DNA of 48,010 nt from an uncultured Chloroflexota bacterium (lineage in GTDB: Bacteria > Chloroflexota > Anaerolineae > UBA4142 > SHND01): NCBI GenBank assembly GCA_937870825.1, contig CALMZO010000192.1, positions 1-48,010 of the forward strand. The letters are read 5' to 3'. The position numbers and the translations under genes were made by a program. The notes under the pieces were generated by a model that saw nothing but the letters and a program-made list of their open reading frames with translations, had not been told where the DNA came from and searched no databases. Positions 16,298 through 36,595 of this stretch are shown one piece after another. Numbering within the stretch: the first letter of the stretch is position 1; each line of letters opens with the position of its first letter.

Positions 16298-16370
16298 GAC
16301 GGATGACGAAGGACGGACGACGGACGACAAGCGATTTTTTGCTTTCGTCATTCGTCGTCCGTCTTCCGTC
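16298..16370. repeat. Heptamer inverted repeat, GACGAAN type
   Basis: Left arm of five 7-base words (GACGGAT GACGAAG GACGGAC GACGGAC GACAAGC), a short T-rich loop, right arm of four complementary words (16343-16370). Same word family as the arms around the four-helix gene at 30263-30733. Lies between two operon genes. Confidence 0.85.
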
Positions 16371-16373
16371 TTG

Positions 16374-22564: not shown

Positions 22565-23828
22565 TCTCTCCCATCAATTTCAAAAATTCCTGTGCGACAA
22601 TCTCGGCGAACGCGGGGTCATTCACATGCGCGTCCATTTCGATATACGGAATTTCTCGGCGCAAATTGTTTCGCAGTTCCGCGCGAAATGCCGCGTCCGC
22701 TTCGGGGTTCCAAAACACGCCGTTCGGAACATTCGGAATCGAAAGCCCTTGCGTCGGAACGACGACGACGACGGGTCCTTGCGCGCCGTTCAATTTTTCT
22801 GCCATGCTGCGCGCGACTTGGACTTGTTCGTCTTGCGTCAAACGAATCAACGTAAATTCGGGATTGTGATAATACGCGGGGCGTCCGTAAAATTTTTCGG
22901 GAATCGCGTCGGGGCGTCCGTTCACGCTGAAATCAATACAGCCCGGCACGACGACTTGGGGAATTCCCAACGCGCCAATTTTTTCCAAACGTTCTTTGCC
23001 GCCCGCGTGAAATCCGCCGACGAGCTGGTCGCTCAATTCGTCCGTCGTGTAATCAATCACGCCGACGAACATTCCTTGCGCGGCGAGTTCTTCCATCGCG
23101 GGTCCGCCGACGCCGTTCGAGTGAAAAACAATCGCTTCGTAGCCGCGCTGTTCTAGAATATCTTTGATGTGCATCACCGCGCGCGTCGTGTTGCCGAGCA
23201 TCGTGATGGCAACGTAACGTGCCGACGAAGGACGAATGCCCAATGACGAATTGGTATCGTTCGTCGTTCGTCGTTCGTCGTTCGTCGCTGCGTTCTTTGC
23301 AGCAACCATCCCAACCACTGCCCCGCACGCGTTATCAAACACGGCGCGCGAAATCGGATTGATGCCGAGAATGTCCACGACGGAATGGACGACGAAAATA
23401 TCTTTGGTCCCCATCAATTGCCCGTAATGGCGTCGCCCCGACGCAATCGGCGTCACAATCACTTTCGGCACACCAATCGGCAGCGCGCGCATCGCGTACG
23501 CGCCCAACACCGCGCCTTCCGCGCCGCCGAGGCACAACACTCCATGAATTTTTCCTTCCTCGTACAATTTCACGGTGATTGCGCGCACACCGTTTTCCAT
23601 AATCTCGACGGCTTTGCCGCGCGTTCCCGCAGCCCGAAGGGCATCAATCGTCGTCCCCGCCGCAATCGCACATTCCGCGCGCGTGATGTCGGGAATGATG
23701 TCGAGCGGTTCGCCCAAAATTCCCGAATCGAGGACGAGCGCGTCAGAACCCAGCGCGCGAATTTTGTCGCGACAGTACGCGATTTCGCGTCCTTTGGTGT
23801 CGAGGGTGCCGATGAGTAAAACAGTCAT
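22536..23828 (-). CDS. Tm-1-like ATP-binding domain protein (UPF0261), copy 1
   Basis: 430 residues: MTVLLIGTLDTKGREIAYCRDKIRALG..., GEPLDIIPDITRAECA, LCLGGAEGAVLGAYAMRALPIGVPKVIVTPIASG, and a C-terminal region EFTLIRLTQDEQVQVARSMAEKLN...FWNPEADAAFRAELRNNLR. Matches the Tm-1/UPF0261 family, whose plant member Tm-1 binds ATP and inhibits viral replication; the bacterial function is unknown. Residues about 187-207 (ATNDERRTTND...) are a 21-codon insertion absent from the second copy at 32114-33319. The insertion is the heptamer hairpin 23224-23286. The C-terminus (REQVAGNR) comes from a repeat arm. Confidence 0.88.
   Translation of the reverse strand: MTVLLIGTLDTKGREIAYCRDKIRALGSDALVLDSGILGEPLDIIPDITRAECAIAAGTTIDALRAAGTRGKAVEIMENGVRAITVKLYEEGKIHGVLCLGGAEGAVLGAYAMRALPIGVPKVIVTPIASGRRHYGQLMGTKDIFVVHSVVDILGINPISRAVFDNACGAVVGMVAAKNAATNDERRTTNDTNSSLGIRPSSARYVAITMLGNTTRAVMHIKDILEQRGYEAIVFHSNGVGGPAMEELAAQGMFVGVIDYTTDELSDQLVGGFHAGGKERLEKIGALGIPQVVVPGCIDFSVNGRPDAIPEKFYGRPAYYHNPEFTLIRLTQDEQVQVARSMAEKLNGAQGPVVVVVPTQGLSIPNVPNGVFWNPEADAAFRAELRNNLRREIPYIEMDAHVNDPAFAEIVAQEFLKLMGEKREQVAGNR
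23224..23286. repeat. 63-bp heptamer hairpin inside a coding gene
   Basis: Four heptamers (GACGAAG, GACGAAT, GCCCAAT, GACGAAT), a 7-base loop, then four GTTCGTC units. 9 x 7 = 63 bases = 21 codons, so the frame is kept. Stop-free; encodes ATNDERRTTND...SSLGIR on the minus strand. Confidence 0.9.
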
Positions 23829-25016: not shown

Positions 25017-26195
25017 CTATCTGCCATTTGCCAACTGCTCTGCCAATAATTGATACAAATTCATCACTTGCATTCCGTCCGCGTATTTTTCCAACGTCGC
25101 GGCGTCGAGTGGGTCATCGGTCACAAGAATTTCCGCGCCGGTGGCTTTGGCTTCGGCGATACGCGTGCGCGCTAAATTTTCCGCGAGCGCGGGATGCGTG
25201 TACTGCAAACCGCCGCTCGTGCCAATCGAAGCCGCGAGAGATTCGCGGAACAACATTTCGCGCGGTTCTGCGCCGAACGCTTGTGTTGCGAGCACGCGCG
25301 CATTCAACGCGTGATGTTTCAAGCGAATGGATTGTGACGCATCGTGGAAGGTGTACGCTTGCGGCGCGCGCGGTTCAATTTTTAATTTCTCGCCCGCGTT
25401 CGCGAGAACGTCAACGAGCGTGGAAACATTCACGCCATCGGGCAAATTCACGCCAAGTTCGGCATATACGTTTTTCAACGCGTGCGCGTCTTGTGGACTC
25501 AGTGCAATGACCTGCGTCACGCCGCTCGATTCCAAATCGCGCACAATGCTTTTCGCAAATTCGCGCGCCGTGTCCCACAGACCGAGTGTGTACGGCAAAT
25601 AGCCGCTCGATTGTCCAACTGCACAGCGCGTCGCGTTCACCCCAAGCGCGTTCAACAATGTTTCCGCTGCCGGGACAATTTCGGGTTTCAAAAAATAGGC
25701 GGCGTCGCCGACAAAGAGGACGGAGGATGACGATGCGTCATCGCGCGTATTGGTTGGGATGCGCGGAGGGTGCGATGAGGCATCGAGACGAATGACCAAA
25801 GACGAATCCGCGTTCGTCGTTCGTCGTTCGTCGTTCGTCGCGTCGCCATACGGCGAACCAAACGCGCGCAACTTGGCCTCAACCACCTTCACGCTTGCAG
25901 GCGCGTATCCCAAACGCACCACCTCCTCGCGCGCAGCTTGAATCGCGTACGGCAATGGACGGTTCGTCGCGCAATTGCCTTGACAATTGCCTGCGTCGGC
26001 GCACCGATACAAGGTATCAACGGATTCTGTGTCCCATTGCAGCATCCCGCGCTGCACCGATGCGACGAGCAATGCCCAACCGTGCGGCGAGGTCGCTTCG
26101 TTTTTTGTCACGCGGCGCACGGGACACGCTTGCGCGCACATGAGACAATAGCGGTCTCCTTCGTAAATCGGAATGTACTCGATAAATTTCGACAA
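25017..26195 (-). CDS. Fe-S oxidoreductase subunit, GlcF-like
   Basis: 392 residues. N-terminal Cys motifs CLMCAQACP and CADAGNCQGNC, consistent with [4Fe-4S] binding, then a CCG-like C-terminal half (FVGDAAYFLKPEIVPAAETLLNALGVNATRC..., NARVLATQAFG, TSGGLQYTHPALAENLARTRIAEAKATGAEILVTDDPLDAATLEKY). Typical of the GlcF/HdrD-type electron-transfer partners of FAD hydroxyacid oxidases; the FAD oxidase at 28822-30261 is the likely partner. TTG start at 26195 with GGAG upstream. Residues about 115-155 are an unusual low-complexity insertion (ATNDERRTTNADSSLVIR...), created by a heptamer hairpin (25787-25839). Confidence 0.83.
   Translation of the reverse strand: MSKFIEYIPIYEGDRYCLMCAQACPVRRVTKNEATSPHGWALLVASVQRGMLQWDTESVDTLYRCADAGNCQGNCATNRPLPYAIQAAREEVVRLGYAPASVKVVEAKLRAFGSPYGDATNDERRTTNADSSLVIRLDASSHPPRIPTNTRDDASSSSVLFVGDAAYFLKPEIVPAAETLLNALGVNATRCAVGQSSGYLPYTLGLWDTAREFAKSIVRDLESSGVTQVIALSPQDAHALKNVYAELGVNLPDGVNVSTLVDVLANAGEKLKIEPRAPQAYTFHDASQSIRLKHHALNARVLATQAFGAEPREMLFRESLAASIGTSGGLQYTHPALAENLARTRIAEAKATGAEILVTDDPLDAATLEKYADGMQVMNLYQLLAEQLANGR
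25787..25839. repeat. Heptamer hairpin inside the Fe-S subunit gene
   Basis: GACGAAT GACCAAA GACGAAT, 4-base loop, four GTTCGTC units. It encodes ATNDERRTTN...SSLVIR in the same frame as the insertion at 23224-23286, although three frames were possible. Confidence 0.85.
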
Positions 26196-28821: not shown

Positions 28822-30261
28822 TTACACACTAAACCCCAATTTCCCCGGATTCATTATCCCGCGCGGGTCCAATGTCTGTTTCAGTTTGTCCAAAATCGGA
28901 AACGCGTCGCCGTACTGTTCGCGCATCAGGCGTCCGAGTTTCAAGCCGATGCCGTGATGTTCGTTCAACATGCCGCCGTTCGCCAATGACGTGCGCGCGG
29001 CAACCGTCCAAATTTTATTGTGCAACTGTATCGCTTGCTGCGCGTCTTGCGGCGGCTCGTCAATGATAAAACGGTCGTACACCATCACGCCCCACGGAAA
29101 CCAATGCGAGAAATGCGCGATGTAACGCGTCTTGTATTCCGCGAACCCTTCTTCAATCGCCTTCTTTTTCGCCCAATACAATTTTTCAATGTTCTCGAAC
29201 GTCGTCACCGTTTCAATCGTACCGTACATTTTCGGCAGCGAAAGCGTGAGCGGCGGAAAATAAAAATCGTAGCGATGCTCCCACCATTCTTTACCGGGAT
29301 GCTCGCCCAAATCGCGCGCGCCGTACTGCGAAACAATTTTCATTGCGCGTTCGTACTGCGCCGCCGCGATTTCTTGATACCCATCAAACACCAAAATCAA
29401 ATACGCGCCTTCGAGGTCAAGATTCAATACGCGTTTCACTAATGATTTCGTTGACGCGTCGTCGTACAAACGCAGGACAGATGGCTGCAATCGCGCCAAC
29501 ATAATTTCGCGTCCCGCTTCGAGCGCACTGTGCAAATCGTCAAACAACACCGCGCGAAAAATGCGGTGTTCGGGCATCCGTTCGATTTGGAAGGTCGCGG
29601 CGGTGATGACGCCCATCGTTCCTTCCGCGCCGACGAGAAAATTCATCAGCATCGGACCCGTCGCGTGATTCGGCACGGGCGGCATTTTCACGAACGTTCC
29701 GTCGGGCATCACCGCTTCGAGCGACACCACCAAGTCTTCTGCCTTTCCGTACTTGGTCGAAATGACGCCGCTGCCGCGTGCTGCCAAATATCCGCCGACG
29801 GTTGCGGCGGCTGCCGATGACGGATAATGCGGGAACGTTAAATTGTGTTCGTTCAACGCGCGTTCAAAAATCGCGCCGTTCACGCCGCACTGCGCGGTCG
29901 CGGTCAAATTCGTTTCGTTGATTTCCAAAATTTGGTCAAGCCGTTTTACATCCAAAACAATCCCGCCAAATATCGGGACCGTACCGCCTTGCGTGCCGCT
30001 CCCCCCCCCCCACGGCACCACCGGAATTTTGTACGTATTCGCAATTTTCAACACCGCCGAAATTTCCTGCGCGTTCGCGGGATGCACAATGAAATCGGGC
30101 GACGCGGGCGTTTGCGCGCGGTCGAGCCACATCTGCGGCATCCATGACCAATCCGTCGCATACACCAACTTGGCAACGTCCGAAACCGAAACAAACTCGT
30201 CCCCCACCACATCGGCGAGTTCCGAGCGAATCATTTCGAATTCAAGTGACGTGAAAAGCAT
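28822..30261 (-). CDS. FAD-linked oxidase, GlcD/alkyl-DHAP synthase type
   Basis: 479 residues. N-terminal PCMH-type FAD-binding domain: VPWGGGSGTQGGTVP (the FAD phosphate loop, about 83-97), PSSAAAATVGGYLAARGSGVISTKYGKAEDL, GAEGTMGVITAATF. The C-terminal FAD-oxidase_C domain ends in NEHHGIGLKLGRLM (active-site His). It oxidises a 2-hydroxy acid, alcohol or similar substrate and would pass electrons to the Fe-S subunit at 25017-26195. The Gly-rich loop is encoded by 11 consecutive G (C on the plus strand), a slip-prone tract. The start may be ATG 30261 or ATG 30234, because the first lies one base from a repeat arm. Confidence 0.9.
   Translation of the reverse strand: MLFTSLEFEMIRSELADVVGDEFVSVSDVAKLVYATDWSWMPQMWLDRAQTPASPDFIVHPANAQEISAVLKIANTYKIPVVPWGGGSGTQGGTVPIFGGIVLDVKRLDQILEINETNLTATAQCGVNGAIFERALNEHNLTFPHYPSSAAAATVGGYLAARGSGVISTKYGKAEDLVVSLEAVMPDGTFVKMPPVPNHATGPMLMNFLVGAEGTMGVITAATFQIERMPEHRIFRAVLFDDLHSALEAGREIMLARLQPSVLRLYDDASTKSLVKRVLNLDLEGAYLILVFDGYQEIAAAQYERAMKIVSQYGARDLGEHPGKEWWEHRYDFYFPPLTLSLPKMYGTIETVTTFENIEKLYWAKKKAIEEGFAEYKTRYIAHFSHWFPWGVMVYDRFIIDEPPQDAQQAIQLHNKIWTVAARTSLANGGMLNEHHGIGLKLGRLMREQYGDAFPILDKLKQTLDPRGIMNPGKLGFSV
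30001..30011. repeat. 11-base homopolymer tract in the FAD oxidase gene
   Basis: Eleven C on the plus strand, reading TGG GGG GGG GGG AGC on the coding strand (Trp-Gly-Gly-Gly-Ser). Changes in length would shift the frame at residue about 86 of 479. Confidence 0.9.
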
Positions 30262-30262
30262 A

Positions 30263-30733
30263 GACGAAGGACGAACGACGAACGACGAAGGTTAAAGTTC
30301 GTCGGTCACATAGCTTTCTTTTTCTTCGCGCAACCATGCTTGAGCAGGCGCGATCGCTTTTCGCATGGCGTGAAGTTTTGCGGCAAGCATTTCTGCCTTT
30401 TGATAAACAATATCGAGTTGGTCATTTTCAATTCCAACATTACGCCGCCGGATCAAATGTTGACAAGCAACTGTTTCCACAAGTGAACGAATGCCAAGTC
30501 CCAAAAATCGCGCTTGCTCCGCATCCGTTTGACTATTTGATCCTTCTGCGATATTCAGCGCGATTGAAGTTGCCGCTCGAACAATTTGCGATTTGAGATT
30601 GAACTCTTCGCTACGTGGCAACTTTTCTGCCAACAGATAAATCAAATCAATATATTCAACTGACAACTTCCAAACCTCCAATTTCTCAAACTTGAATGGC
30701 ATTTCATTCGTCCTTCGTCATCCGTCCTTCGTC
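30263..30733 (-). mobile_element. Four-helix-bundle gene bracketed by heptamer inverted repeats
   Basis: The unit is 471 bp. Left arm 30263-30290 is exactly four heptamers (GACGAAG GACGAAC GACGAAC GACGAAG), one base from the stop codon of the four-helix gene. Right arm 30706-30733 is exactly four complementary heptamers, three bases from its start codon. Arms match at 24 of 28 bases. The right arm also encodes the last four codons and TGA stop of the upstream PEP-hydrolase-like gene (ends 30718); the left arm ends one base before the FAD oxidase ATG. That is the structure expected of an inserted cassette. Mobility is inferred, not shown. Confidence 0.75.
30292..30702 (-). CDS. Four-helix-bundle protein (S23/avd-like family)
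   Basis: 136 residues: FKFEKLEVWKLSVEYIDLIYLLAEKLPRSEEFNLKSQIVRAATSIALNIAEGSNSQTDAEQARFLGLGIRSLVETVACQHLIRRRNVG. This is the TIGR02436-type four-helix bundle family: the EVWKxS-, LKSQIxRAAxSIxxNIAEG and RSLxExxxQ motifs are all present. Relatives include proteins encoded in 23S rRNA intervening sequences and the Avd accessory protein of diversity-generating retroelements, but most are stand-alone with no known activity. It is full length. Its unusual feature is that it fills the loop of a heptamer inverted repeat (30263-30733). A truncated paralogue with a matching upstream array lies at 47807-47941. Confidence 0.92.
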   Translation of the reverse strand: MPFKFEKLEVWKLSVEYIDLIYLLAEKLPRSEEFNLKSQIVRAATSIALNIAEGSNSQTDAEQARFLGLGIRSLVETVACQHLIRRRNVGIENDQLDIVYQKAEMLAAKLHAMRKAIAPAQAWLREEKESYVTDEL

Positions 30734-31560
30734 AACCGCAGTGTCTTGAACGCGCGCGTTTGCTCTTCCAACGCCGGTTCCACTGCCAGCCGTTCAATAC
30801 TGCTTGCGCCGAAAAATCCTGCAATGCCGTGCGTGTGGTCAAAAATAAATTGCGCGTCGCGCGGTTCCGCAATCGGTCCGCCGTGACAGAGAACGAGAAT
30901 GTCGGGATTAATCGCCACTGCGGCATCGCGCATCGCTTGCGCGCGCCGCGCGCTTTCTTCCAGCGTCAGCGCGGTGTGCGCGCCGATTGCGCCTTTGGTT
31001 GTCAGTCCCATGTGCGGCACGAGAACGTCCGCGCCCGCTTCCGCCATCGCCCGCGCTTCGTCGGGATTGAAAACGTACGGACAGGTCAGCATATCAAGTT
31101 CGCGCGCTTGGCGAATCATTTCCACTTCGAGCCCGTAACCCATGCCCGTCTCTTCCAAATTTTGACGAAAGACGCCTTCAAACAATCCGACAGTCGGAAA
31201 ATTTTGCACGCCGTCGAAACCTTCGGCTTTGACCTTTTGCAAAAACACATTCATCAAACGGAACGGGTCTGTCCCGCACACGCCCGCGAGAACGGGAGTA
31301 TTTTTCACCACAGGCAAAACTTCGCCGCCCATCTCGAGCACAATCGCGTTCGCGTCGCCATACGGCAAAAGTCCCGCAAGCGAACCGCGTCCCGCCATGC
31401 GAAAGCGCCCGCTGTTGTAAATGATGAGAATGTCCACACCGCCGCGTTCTGCAAATTTCGCGGAAATGCCGGTGCCTGCGCCCGCGCCGATGATGGGCTT
31501 GCCTGTCGCGACCTGCGCGCGCAATTTTCTCAAGGATTCTTGACGCGGAATAAACGGCAT
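30718..31560 (-). CDS. PEP-hydrolase-like TIM-barrel protein (Tm-1 C-terminal type)
   Basis: 280 residues: [77 protein letters not shown]..., [65 protein letters not shown]. This family (phosphoenolpyruvate hydrolase or TIM-barrel signal-transduction protein) corresponds to the C-terminal half of the plant Tm-1 protein. A UPF0261 gene lies two genes upstream, as often seen. ATG 31560 is chosen because the gap to the upstream gene is then 4 bases. Its last four codons and stop come from the repeat arm at 30706-30733. Confidence 0.87.
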
Positions 31561-31564
31561 CGCA

Positions 31565-32032
31565 TTAACCTTCGGCTTGTTTCTGTTCCACTTTCGCAAT
31601 CGAAACCGTGCCGAGTCCCTCGCGCGCGTGTTCGCCGTGAATGCGCGGCACGATATGACTCCAAAAAATATAACCGATGGTGGAAATCAGCAGCACGATG
31701 AAACCCAGCGTGTACAGCCCGACGGCGAACGGCTGAAACATTCCGAAAACGCCCAACACAATGCCCGCAATCAACGCGCGTTCGCCGACGCGGTACACGG
31801 AATTCGAAAGGTGGTTGTTTAGACGCGTCGCCATCAAAATAATAAAATCAATAAACGCGACGATGATGCCGATAAAGGTGAGAATAAAAGGAATGCCGCT
31901 CAAAATCGTGTTGTCTGCGCGCGTCTTGGCATCCAGTCCGCCCACAATCGGGCTTGCAATCGCGCCCGCGACCCACAACGCAATCGCAATCGCCAACAGA
32001 ATGAGCAGTAATCGTTTTCGTCCGGCACTCAT
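31565..32032 (-). CDS. Small four-helix membrane protein, unknown
   Basis: 155 residues with four predicted membrane spans: [85 protein letters not shown], then a short charged C-terminus. No recognised family. It lies between Tm-1-like copy 2 and the TIM-barrel protein, with 4-base spacing to the latter, so it may be a membrane partner of that pair. Confidence 0.65.
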
Positions 32033-32120
32033 AGAAAAGTGAAAAGTGAAAAGTTAAAAGCGAAAAGTGAAAAATCCACTTGTCTTGGCTTTTAGCTTTT
32101 AACTTTGTACTTTTTACTTG
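32033..32120. repeat. Heptamer inverted repeat, GAAAAGT type
   Basis: Left arm GAAAAGT x3, TAAAAGC, GAAAAGT; right arm GCTTTTA GCTTTTA ACTTTGT ACTTTTT. Supplies the TAA stop of Tm-1-like copy 2 (32114). The words contain stops in some frames and occur only between genes. Confidence 0.85.
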
Positions 32121-36510: not shown

Positions 36511-36595
36511 GGAAAAGTAAAAAGTAAAAAGTTCAAAGCTAAAAGTTTCCTCTCTCGACGTACACTTTTAGCTTTTAACTTTTGACTTTTCGCTT
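36511..36595. repeat. Heptamer inverted repeat, AAAAGTA type
   Basis: Left arm AAAAGTA AAAAGTA AAAAGTT CAAAGCT, right arm ACTTTTA GCTTTTA ACTTTTG ACTTTTC. Two bases from the stop of the permease gene at 36597. Related to 32033-32120. Confidence 0.85.

Follow-up and report, generated by a model that had tools for sequence, protein, structure and literature searches.

A four-helix-bundle gene between inverted heptamer arrays as a probable small mobile element, with relatives in many bacterial phyla

The window analysed here is a 48,010-nucleotide stretch of DNA from an uncultured Chloroflexota bacterium (contig CALMZO010000192.1 of assembly GCA_937870825.1), and within it a 471-bp unit (30263-30733, minus strand) consists of a gene for a four-helix-bundle protein of the S23p/TIGR02436 family lying between two inverted arrays of 7-base words that are specific to the protein's clade. 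It represents a widespread type of element made of protein and heptamers, of which it is a single copy, and on present evidence we consider it probable that it is a small mobile element, probably of a selfish kind. The pairing joins two open questions, the function of S23p proteins and the origin of heptamer repeats; each protein names its word and vice versa.

The arms of the unit are 28 bases each, with four heptamers of the GACGAAG type in the left arm (30263-30290) and four inverted heptamers in the right arm (30706-30733), and 24 of the 28 positions are identical. Within 60 nt on either side of the gene no ungapped inverted match of 28 bases is better, and none of 300 Markov-1 shuffles reached it; an array finder called a period-7 array at 30260-30297, spanning the left arm. 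The gene itself (30292-30702, minus strand, 136 aa) has its stop codon (30292-30294) 1 base from the left arm and its start codon (30700-30702) 3 bases from the right arm. Protein frames flank the unit closely on both sides (28822-30261 and 30718-31599), such that the ATG of the next gene (30259-30261) is 1 base from the left arm and the stop codon of the upstream gene (30718-30720) is inside the right arm. A preliminary description of the window had reported the arms, the three spacings and the contribution of the right arm to the upstream gene; the arms were recomputed exactly and the coordinates bear out the rest. No transposase is present in the unit according to the frame list and a Pfam search, and no Rfam family, rRNA included, reached its gathering score anywhere in the window. 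As RNA, the arms are predicted to pair into a stem of about 20 bp which encloses the whole reading frame (z -4.5 compared to shuffles, with 0 of 100 shuffles equally stable). The inverted-match score between the upstream and downstream flanks of the window unit is 21. Among 747 control genes five score at least 18 and the top score is 24, so that, taken as a single gene, the window unit is unusual and not unique; the strength of the finding lies in its recurrence.

The window protein has a single Pfam match, to PF05635 23S_rRNA_IVP (E 3e-24, 85.5 bits against a cut-off of 33.8), and matches TIGR02436, the family already named in the preliminary description, with an E of 6e-25 and 87.6 bits against a curated cut-off of 24. 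A structure model (pLDDT 87.7) matches 2gsc (XCC0516), solved in 2006, and 2rld, both of the S23 family and both with five chains listed in their entries. The model also matches, more weakly, the Avd protein of diversity-generating retroelements (DGRs), both alone (4dwl) and in the DGR reverse-transcriptase particle (8ub7), with Foldseek E values of 0.04-0.6 and a probability near 1. The four-helix protein is under purifying selection, with dN/dS values of 0.07-0.11 in 12 related pairs, two of which have saturated dS. In the available text of PMC4990558, S23p proteins are described as having no known function.

In what follows G000 denotes the genome of the window, G001-G005 five sister genomes, and L numbers the loci or units. 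G000 (7.2 Mb) contains 15 matches to TIGR02436. At a relaxed threshold, 11 of these genes have an array of period 7 or 8 near both ends and the remaining 4 near one end (L003, L012, whose upstream flank is missing, L014 and L015); the array words differ between nearly all of the copies. These 15 units, together with 62 from 29 relatives (a part of the more than 150 family matches listed), were compared to control genes from the window and from sampled stretches of array-bearing relatives. Of the resulting 77 units, 74 entered the period spectrum and the Mantel test and 72 the arm test, the others being short of flank. With a fixed start rule the arms of 48 of 72 four-helix units score at least 15. 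Of the 747 controls 17 do so (odds ratio 86, p 6e-45), and of those encoding 90-180 aa, 4 of 210. The period spectrum of the flanks has a peak at 7, a smaller one at 8 and none elsewhere over 3 to 12. Solo arrays abound in these genomes, and for that reason control genes have period-7 arrays beside them too (on one side or the other in 32 of 148, at score 16). It is the position between a matching inverted array pair that distinguishes the four-helix gene. Furthermore, a search of the window and 80 sampled stretches, some of them from contigs picked for holding a family match, gave nine inverted array pairs 150-1500 bp apart, of which seven enclose a four-helix gene and two adjoin one. The operon-like setting also recurs: among the 68 units with enough flank, a same-strand frame (frames rather than annotated genes were counted) ends no more than 160 nt upstream and another starts no more than 140 nt downstream in 56, as opposed to 29 for the opposite strand.

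The heptamer word follows the clade of the protein. The relation could be followed across phyla by scanning 84,980 species genomes with peptide patterns that are blind to the flanks; since a broader alignment (A1) had no stretch conserved enough for such a scan, the narrower alignment A2 was used and the cross-phylum result therefore covers one protein clade. The best 80 of at least 551 confirmed stretches were kept as loci, with protein identities of 66-82%, and 76 were usable in the test for the clade's word, 4 being left out. The records are labelled as Cyanobacteria, Bacteroidota, Verrucomicrobia, Desulfobacterales, Acidobacteria, Planctomycetota, Ignavibacteriae, Peptococcaceae, Meiothermus and others; labels of metagenome-assembled genomes (MAGs) may be wrong, and Nostoc linckia, Gracilimonas mengyeensis and Ereboglobus are among the records not labelled as MAGs. 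Two in-phase CAGRANN heptamers are present in sense orientation in the 100 nt upstream of the gene at 55 of 76 loci, compared to 10 of 1900 control windows, and the reverse complement is present downstream at 34 of 76, compared to 5 of 1900; 63 of the 76 have the word on either side, and the wrong orientation is seen at only 1 and 2 loci. Consecutive upstream CAGRA motifs are spaced by 7 in 203 cases, by 14 in 20 and by 21 in 7. The preliminary description would have been refuted by arms no more heptamer-phased around other four-helix genes than around random genes; in both forms of this comparison, arm scores and cross-phylum word, the flanks of the family proved much more inverted and in heptamer phase than the controls, in favour of its reading.

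Within the relatives of the window's genome, word similarity grows with protein similarity (Mantel r 0.35 over 2539 non-syntenic pairs, reached by 0 of 2000 permutations). Both arms of one unit tend to change together at sites that are kept: for orthologous same-site units, arm similarity within the unit exceeds that between orthologues in 32 of 39 pairs; the pairs overlap in their loci and are not independent of each other. For example, by eye both arms of L006 in G000 have GTGAACGG, and both arms of the orthologue in G005, which is 80% identical, have GTGACAGG. We regard the coupling of four-helix protein clade and heptamer word as a near certainty. A set of related units with similar flanking genes (L001, L068, L071, L019, L020 and L092), from genomes of two families and with proteins 51-86% identical, has words that differ between the two families, as with long retention and word drift.

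Arrays of these words are also found alone. There are 17 tandem arrays in the window (14 of period 7, 2 of period 8 and 1 of period 6) and none in each of five Markov-3 shuffles of it. Three solo inverted hairpins of the window unit's word, all noted in the preliminary description, are present: a gene-less one at 16298-16372 (word match to the window unit 0.49 and 0.37), and others at 23224-23289 and 25787-25840, of which the array finder gives the right halves (23257-23289 and 25807-25840). In the genome as a whole, 17 of the 26 solo arrays have a match among 13 own arms, compared to 13% with random foreign arms, and none of 200 random sets of 13 foreign arms reached the own-genome level; the 13 are the 15 own genes without L015, which is Avd-like, and L012, which has no upstream flank. 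In the window and the 80 sampled stretches, 39 close inverted array pairs were counted. Two further solo hairpins in the window (32031-32119 and 36513-36595) have an AAAAGTG/AAAAGCT word; the same word makes up the arms of L007, a four-helix unit at another place in the genome. A second, decayed unit is found near the contig end (47777-47940, plus strand), with a GACGGAG-type arm and the start of a four-helix gene that carries one in-frame stop, a TAG, and is 56% identical over residues 3-50.

The load of arrays also rises with the number of four-helix genes. Over 27 genomes of the class, array density and gene number have a Spearman correlation of 0.893, which becomes 0.85 with gene number per Mb; the 15 genomes that belong to other orders than the window's give 0.60 (p 0.017). 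Density was sampled over about 25-60 kb per genome with four-helix flanks masked, and some stretches came from contigs picked for family matches. No array was sampled in any of 5 genomes lacking the gene, nor in any of 7 with one or two genes. For the cross-phylum clade, at least one CAGRANT triple is present in 11 of 15 genomes holding it and none in 4, with up to 708 matches per strand. Among 60 Nostocaceae-like genomes, which are of the family of G040 and were drawn from a larger group, the median number of CAGRANT triples is 30 in those with a protein at least 60% identical and 4 in those without (p 0.004, or 0.0096 minus the query genome); no triple at all was found in 0 of 12 carriers and in 14 of 48 others. 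Four of the 12 carrier proteins are broken or partial.

Bacteria have an excess of heptamer repeats, and polymerase slippage has been proposed as their source in the accessible part of PMC4692102, in which case the four-helix gene would be a bystander. We regard this as very improbable, given the inverted pairing around the four-helix family, the clade words across phyla and the correlation with gene number. As the whole story slippage is refuted by the CAGRANN clade test, the Mantel test and the arm test, and a chance position of the gene next to simple slippage repeats is removed by the inverted pairing, the clade words and the wide-pair counts.

A second alternative is that the proteins are host regulators that bind the repeats, with their own arms being autoregulatory and the solo arrays near gene ends forming a regulon. 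A gene end lies no more than 15 nt away from 59 of 129 array blocks, the protein is under the purifying selection described above, the 5' arm and start region fall in a strong predicted RNA stem, and regulation has been proposed earlier for heptamer sets (PMC4679880 and PMC2700814, in the parts available); all of this would fit such a role. Against it, the words differ between nearly all copies within one genome, sister species differ in which sites are occupied, and one clade has close relatives scattered over many phyla and plasmids. We consider a regulon rather unlikely as an account of the unit.

That the sites turn over is clear from sister genomes. The window junction could be located in two of the five, G004 and G005, and was not found in G001-G003. 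The four-helix gene is missing in both: in G005 (flank 88% identical) a different heptamer hairpin is present instead, and in G004 (81% identical) there is one short array of the window's word. Unit L010 is missing in G005, where 6 bp separate the flanks, and also in G004, and L004 is missing in G002-G005. G001 has a relative of L004 directly beside the corresponding right flank, the left flank being on another contig. In G001 the TCAGTCA-type word of the L004/L061 unit occurs at dozens of places, with only a few in the sister genomes, and around 300 bases of this word separate the L061 gene from the right flank.

The cleanest case of unit movement is a site in the conjugation region of cyanobacterial plasmids. 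Units are found there in plasmid C of Trichormus variabilis ATCC 29413, in strain 0441 and in Scytonema NIES-4073, whereas at least six records are free of the unit at the same site, with flanks 96.9-98.1% identical that lie 153 bp apart rather than 581. The plasmid of Nostoc linckia NIES-25 lacks 428 bp, with flank identities of 98.4% over 1000 nt on the left and 97.4% over 700 nt on the right; by eye, GTAA flanks the insert on both sides and is present once in the empty site. Two of the empty sites were read and contain no array, and the occupied sites have arms and gene together. At the same junction Brasilonema pBOCT2 has a gene-less hairpin of the same word and plasmid E of Nostoc C052 the decayed remnant of a unit. 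The preliminary description had called the unit a candidate minimal mobile element, a proposal that would fall if related loci never lacked it; with the gene absent from both sister junctions found, the empty plasmid records and the recurrence of the arms, that proposal is supported as a reading. We think it very likely that the unit is mobile.

It could instead be that the four-helix gene inserts into existing heptamer hairpins, the arms being its target rather than part of the mobile unit. Solo hairpins are common enough for this (the 39 close pairs above), and the other hairpin in G005, the single same-word array in G004 and the Brasilonema hairpin all occupy sites where a unit is found elsewhere. 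The two empty plasmid sites examined, which hold no array where occupied sites have arms and gene together, and the 6 bp between the flanks of the empty L010 site speak against it. Furthermore, three 432-bp copies from MAGs labelled Deltaproteobacteria, Meiothermus and Proteobacteria are alike out to their outer tips, being 82-84% identical from tip to tip (GTAACTAYTCAGG..CCTGARTAGTTAC), while their flanks are 51-55% identical, the level of unrelated DNA. We consider insertion of the gene alone improbable.

The tips of these copies bring in what is the best rival for the joining step, namely a passing transposase acting on them. Direct repeats of at least 6 bases are present at 5 of 7 tip-defined copies and at 0 of 42 swapped pairs, and their sum is reached by 1 of 5040 permutations, as it is by the true pairing itself; the tips were defined after inspection of the three copies, several repeats had been seen by eye before counting, one is a run of T and several sit one to three bases off the tip. 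On this alternative the unit is cargo, moved in the manner of a miniature inverted-repeat transposable element (MITE) by the transposase of an insertion sequence (IS) via tips beginning GTAAC or GTAAG, while the protein and heptamers have another role, for instance in silencing or processing the insert. The GTAA tips, the 6-8 bp direct repeats at 5 of 7 copies and the lack of a transposase in the window unit would all agree with this. The ends of the IS66 family begin with GTAA and this family makes 8-bp duplications; a literature search on IS66 ends gave no support for IS66 as the mover in the portions of text available. Both tips are present in only 7 of 80 loci and were not seen at the window unit, and cargo status leaves the co-variation of word and protein clade, and the joint change of the arms, unexplained. 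We consider the cargo explanation unlikely as a whole. Y1 transposases and reverse transcriptases were set aside as movers, with only two matches of each family in the genome. In viral contigs the tip pattern gave no two-tipped element among 21 stretches, and phage records gave no match to the A2-clade protein L133; 29 protein relatives were found in viral contigs, 19 of them with an arm score of at least 15, and such contigs may be cellular or proviral.

Several results weigh against the unit being a mobile element of protein and cognate word. The arm threshold is missed by 24 of 72 units with the fixed start and by 18 of 72 with any plausible start, and in the strict test only 26 of 76 loci have CAGRANN on both sides. 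Target duplications show in the tip-defined copies only: over all 114 units whose edges could be defined, by alignment, direct repeats gave no signal (5 with at least 6 bases, where 2% are expected). Matching of solo arrays to own words in 11 other genomes, whose arm sets are incomplete, was significant in one (G009) and not in the other 10, and G030 has four four-helix genes and no array in the sampled stretches. Arrays are also found without a cognate protein: G085 (Nostocaceae) has 348 CAGRANT triple matches and no family member detected, having either lost the gene or kept arrays without it, and G105, G068 and G108 have 143-239 such matches. Because of these four genomes it appears that arrays can outlive or outrun the gene. 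Within the genus the own-word test does not support the pairing of protein and word; arms of the window's word number at least 27 in G000, at least 8 in G004 and at least 6 in G005, with none among the candidates scored in G001-G003 (our own counts, lower bounds with up to 40 candidates scored per genome), and so G004 and G005 carry arrays of this word with no near relative of the window protein, relatives at 60% identity being found in none of the genus genomes searched other than G000. Finally, to our knowledge no catalytic domain is known in the S23p family.

A mobile element of protein plus word would most likely work as follows. The unit would insert whole, mostly between the genes of operons, and would spread between phyla and on conjugative plasmids, while gene-less hairpins of the same word would be its non-autonomous derivatives, as repetitive extragenic palindrome doublets (REPINs) are of the elements of REP-associated tyrosine transposases (RAYTs). 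Protein and word vary together between phyla and between sites, for which the simplest cause would be that the protein recognises its word; we think this rather likely. The protein, which is a pentamer in a solved relative, would recognise the arrays as a folded strand; the recognised form could be RNA, hairpin single-stranded DNA or both, because the arms of a transcript make a long stem which covers the start region. The arms keep one orientation relative to the gene, as they do in any element with terminal inverted repeats. Our opinion is evenly divided on whether an RNA step is involved; with RNA processing, an insertion into an operon or into rRNA would cost the host transcript little. 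Cutting and joining would be carried out by enzymes of the host or of other elements, because neither a transposase nor a reverse transcriptase is present in the unit. If the protein does recognise the array, nature would have provided in this family a series of small bundles that differ in the sequences they recognise, and there would be a route by which a DNA unit could spread without a transposase of its own.

The unit was compared to the known systems that it most resembles. Unlike simple sequence repeats, the repeats here are associated with a particular gene. For insertion sequences and MITEs, which have defined terminal inverted repeats and target-site duplications, the picture is mixed: there are direct repeats at 5 of 7 tip-defined copies and GTAA on both sides at the plasmid site, but no such signal over the 114 units. 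In logic the nearest are the REPIN/RAYT systems, in which, according to the available text of PMC3116915, a gene is tied to repeats, inverted hairpin doublets are dispersed and there are repeat groups per protein. Inverted doublets with the word of the gene's flanks are present here also (the 39 pairs, and the 17 of 26 own solo arrays). RAYTs are tyrosine transposases (PMC3116915, same text), whereas here there is a four-helix bundle and the heptamers are in tandem; the window protein has no Y1 transposase match, and the two Y1_Tnp genes of the genome are on other contigs. The preliminary description had seen REP/RAYT logic with a different protein. The logic holds as far as a gene with matching repeats and dispersed hairpins is concerned, and the protein is indeed a different one.

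With DGRs the likeness is in the Avd fold, and in a weak match of the sister protein L001 to the family NF033474 (E 4e-6, below the cut-off). The two RVT_1 genes of the genome are on contigs C364 and C249, with none on C192, the contig of the window. L015 (G000:C249:18927-19235) is the one family member of the genome that adjoins a reverse-transcriptase gene and, because of this, probably a DGR Avd. Matching inverted arms are lacking there (score 7), and a weak period-7 stretch lies upstream.

The heptamer repeats described earlier include TAACTGA in Beggiatoaceae (PMC4679880), GGGAATC in Xanthomonas and GGGGAYT in Nostoc (PMC4692102) and MTYCTGA in Geobacter (PMC2700814). They share with the present arrays the 7-bp period, a mostly intergenic position near gene ends and, at times, inversion; TAACTGA is present in the downstream arm of L004, and downstream arms in the CAGRANT clade, CTCCTGA and ATTCTGA among them, fit MTYCTGA. 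The cyanobacterial heptamer repeats are known as STRR. In the available portions of the same three papers the repeats are given an unknown function or a possible regulatory one, and no four-helix protein is tied to them; nor was a report linking heptamer arrays to four-helix proteins as a general system found in the searches made of open-licence literature, as far as its accessible text goes.

In anatomy the closest likeness is to the intervening sequences (IVSs) of rRNA, in which an S23p/PF05635 frame lies between complementary arms, as it does here. The Coxiella rRNA IVS has two to three GACAGAT heptamers directly before the S23p start, with the RNase III site at the first of them (PMC4990558, in the part available). 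The anatomy is the same, which suggests that RNA processing could be part of the life style of the unit, and the rRNA IVS may be a special case of the element. IVSs sit in rRNA and are cut out of it, whereas the window unit is between protein frames with no rRNA, and dispersed hairpins with matching words are not described for IVSs in the accessible sources. Since every known system tested fails at least one defining feature, we regard the element as being of a categorically new kind, of which the rRNA IVS is the probable first-seen special case. More tentatively, and as a view we hold to be slightly less probable than its contrary, there would be a class of transposase-free mobile units in many phyla, in which an S23p-type pentamer and clade-specific heptamers act through folded RNA or a single strand, which would be the source of the cyanobacterial, Xanthomonas, Beggiatoaceae and Geobacter repeats, and whose copies that landed in rRNA would be the IVSs.
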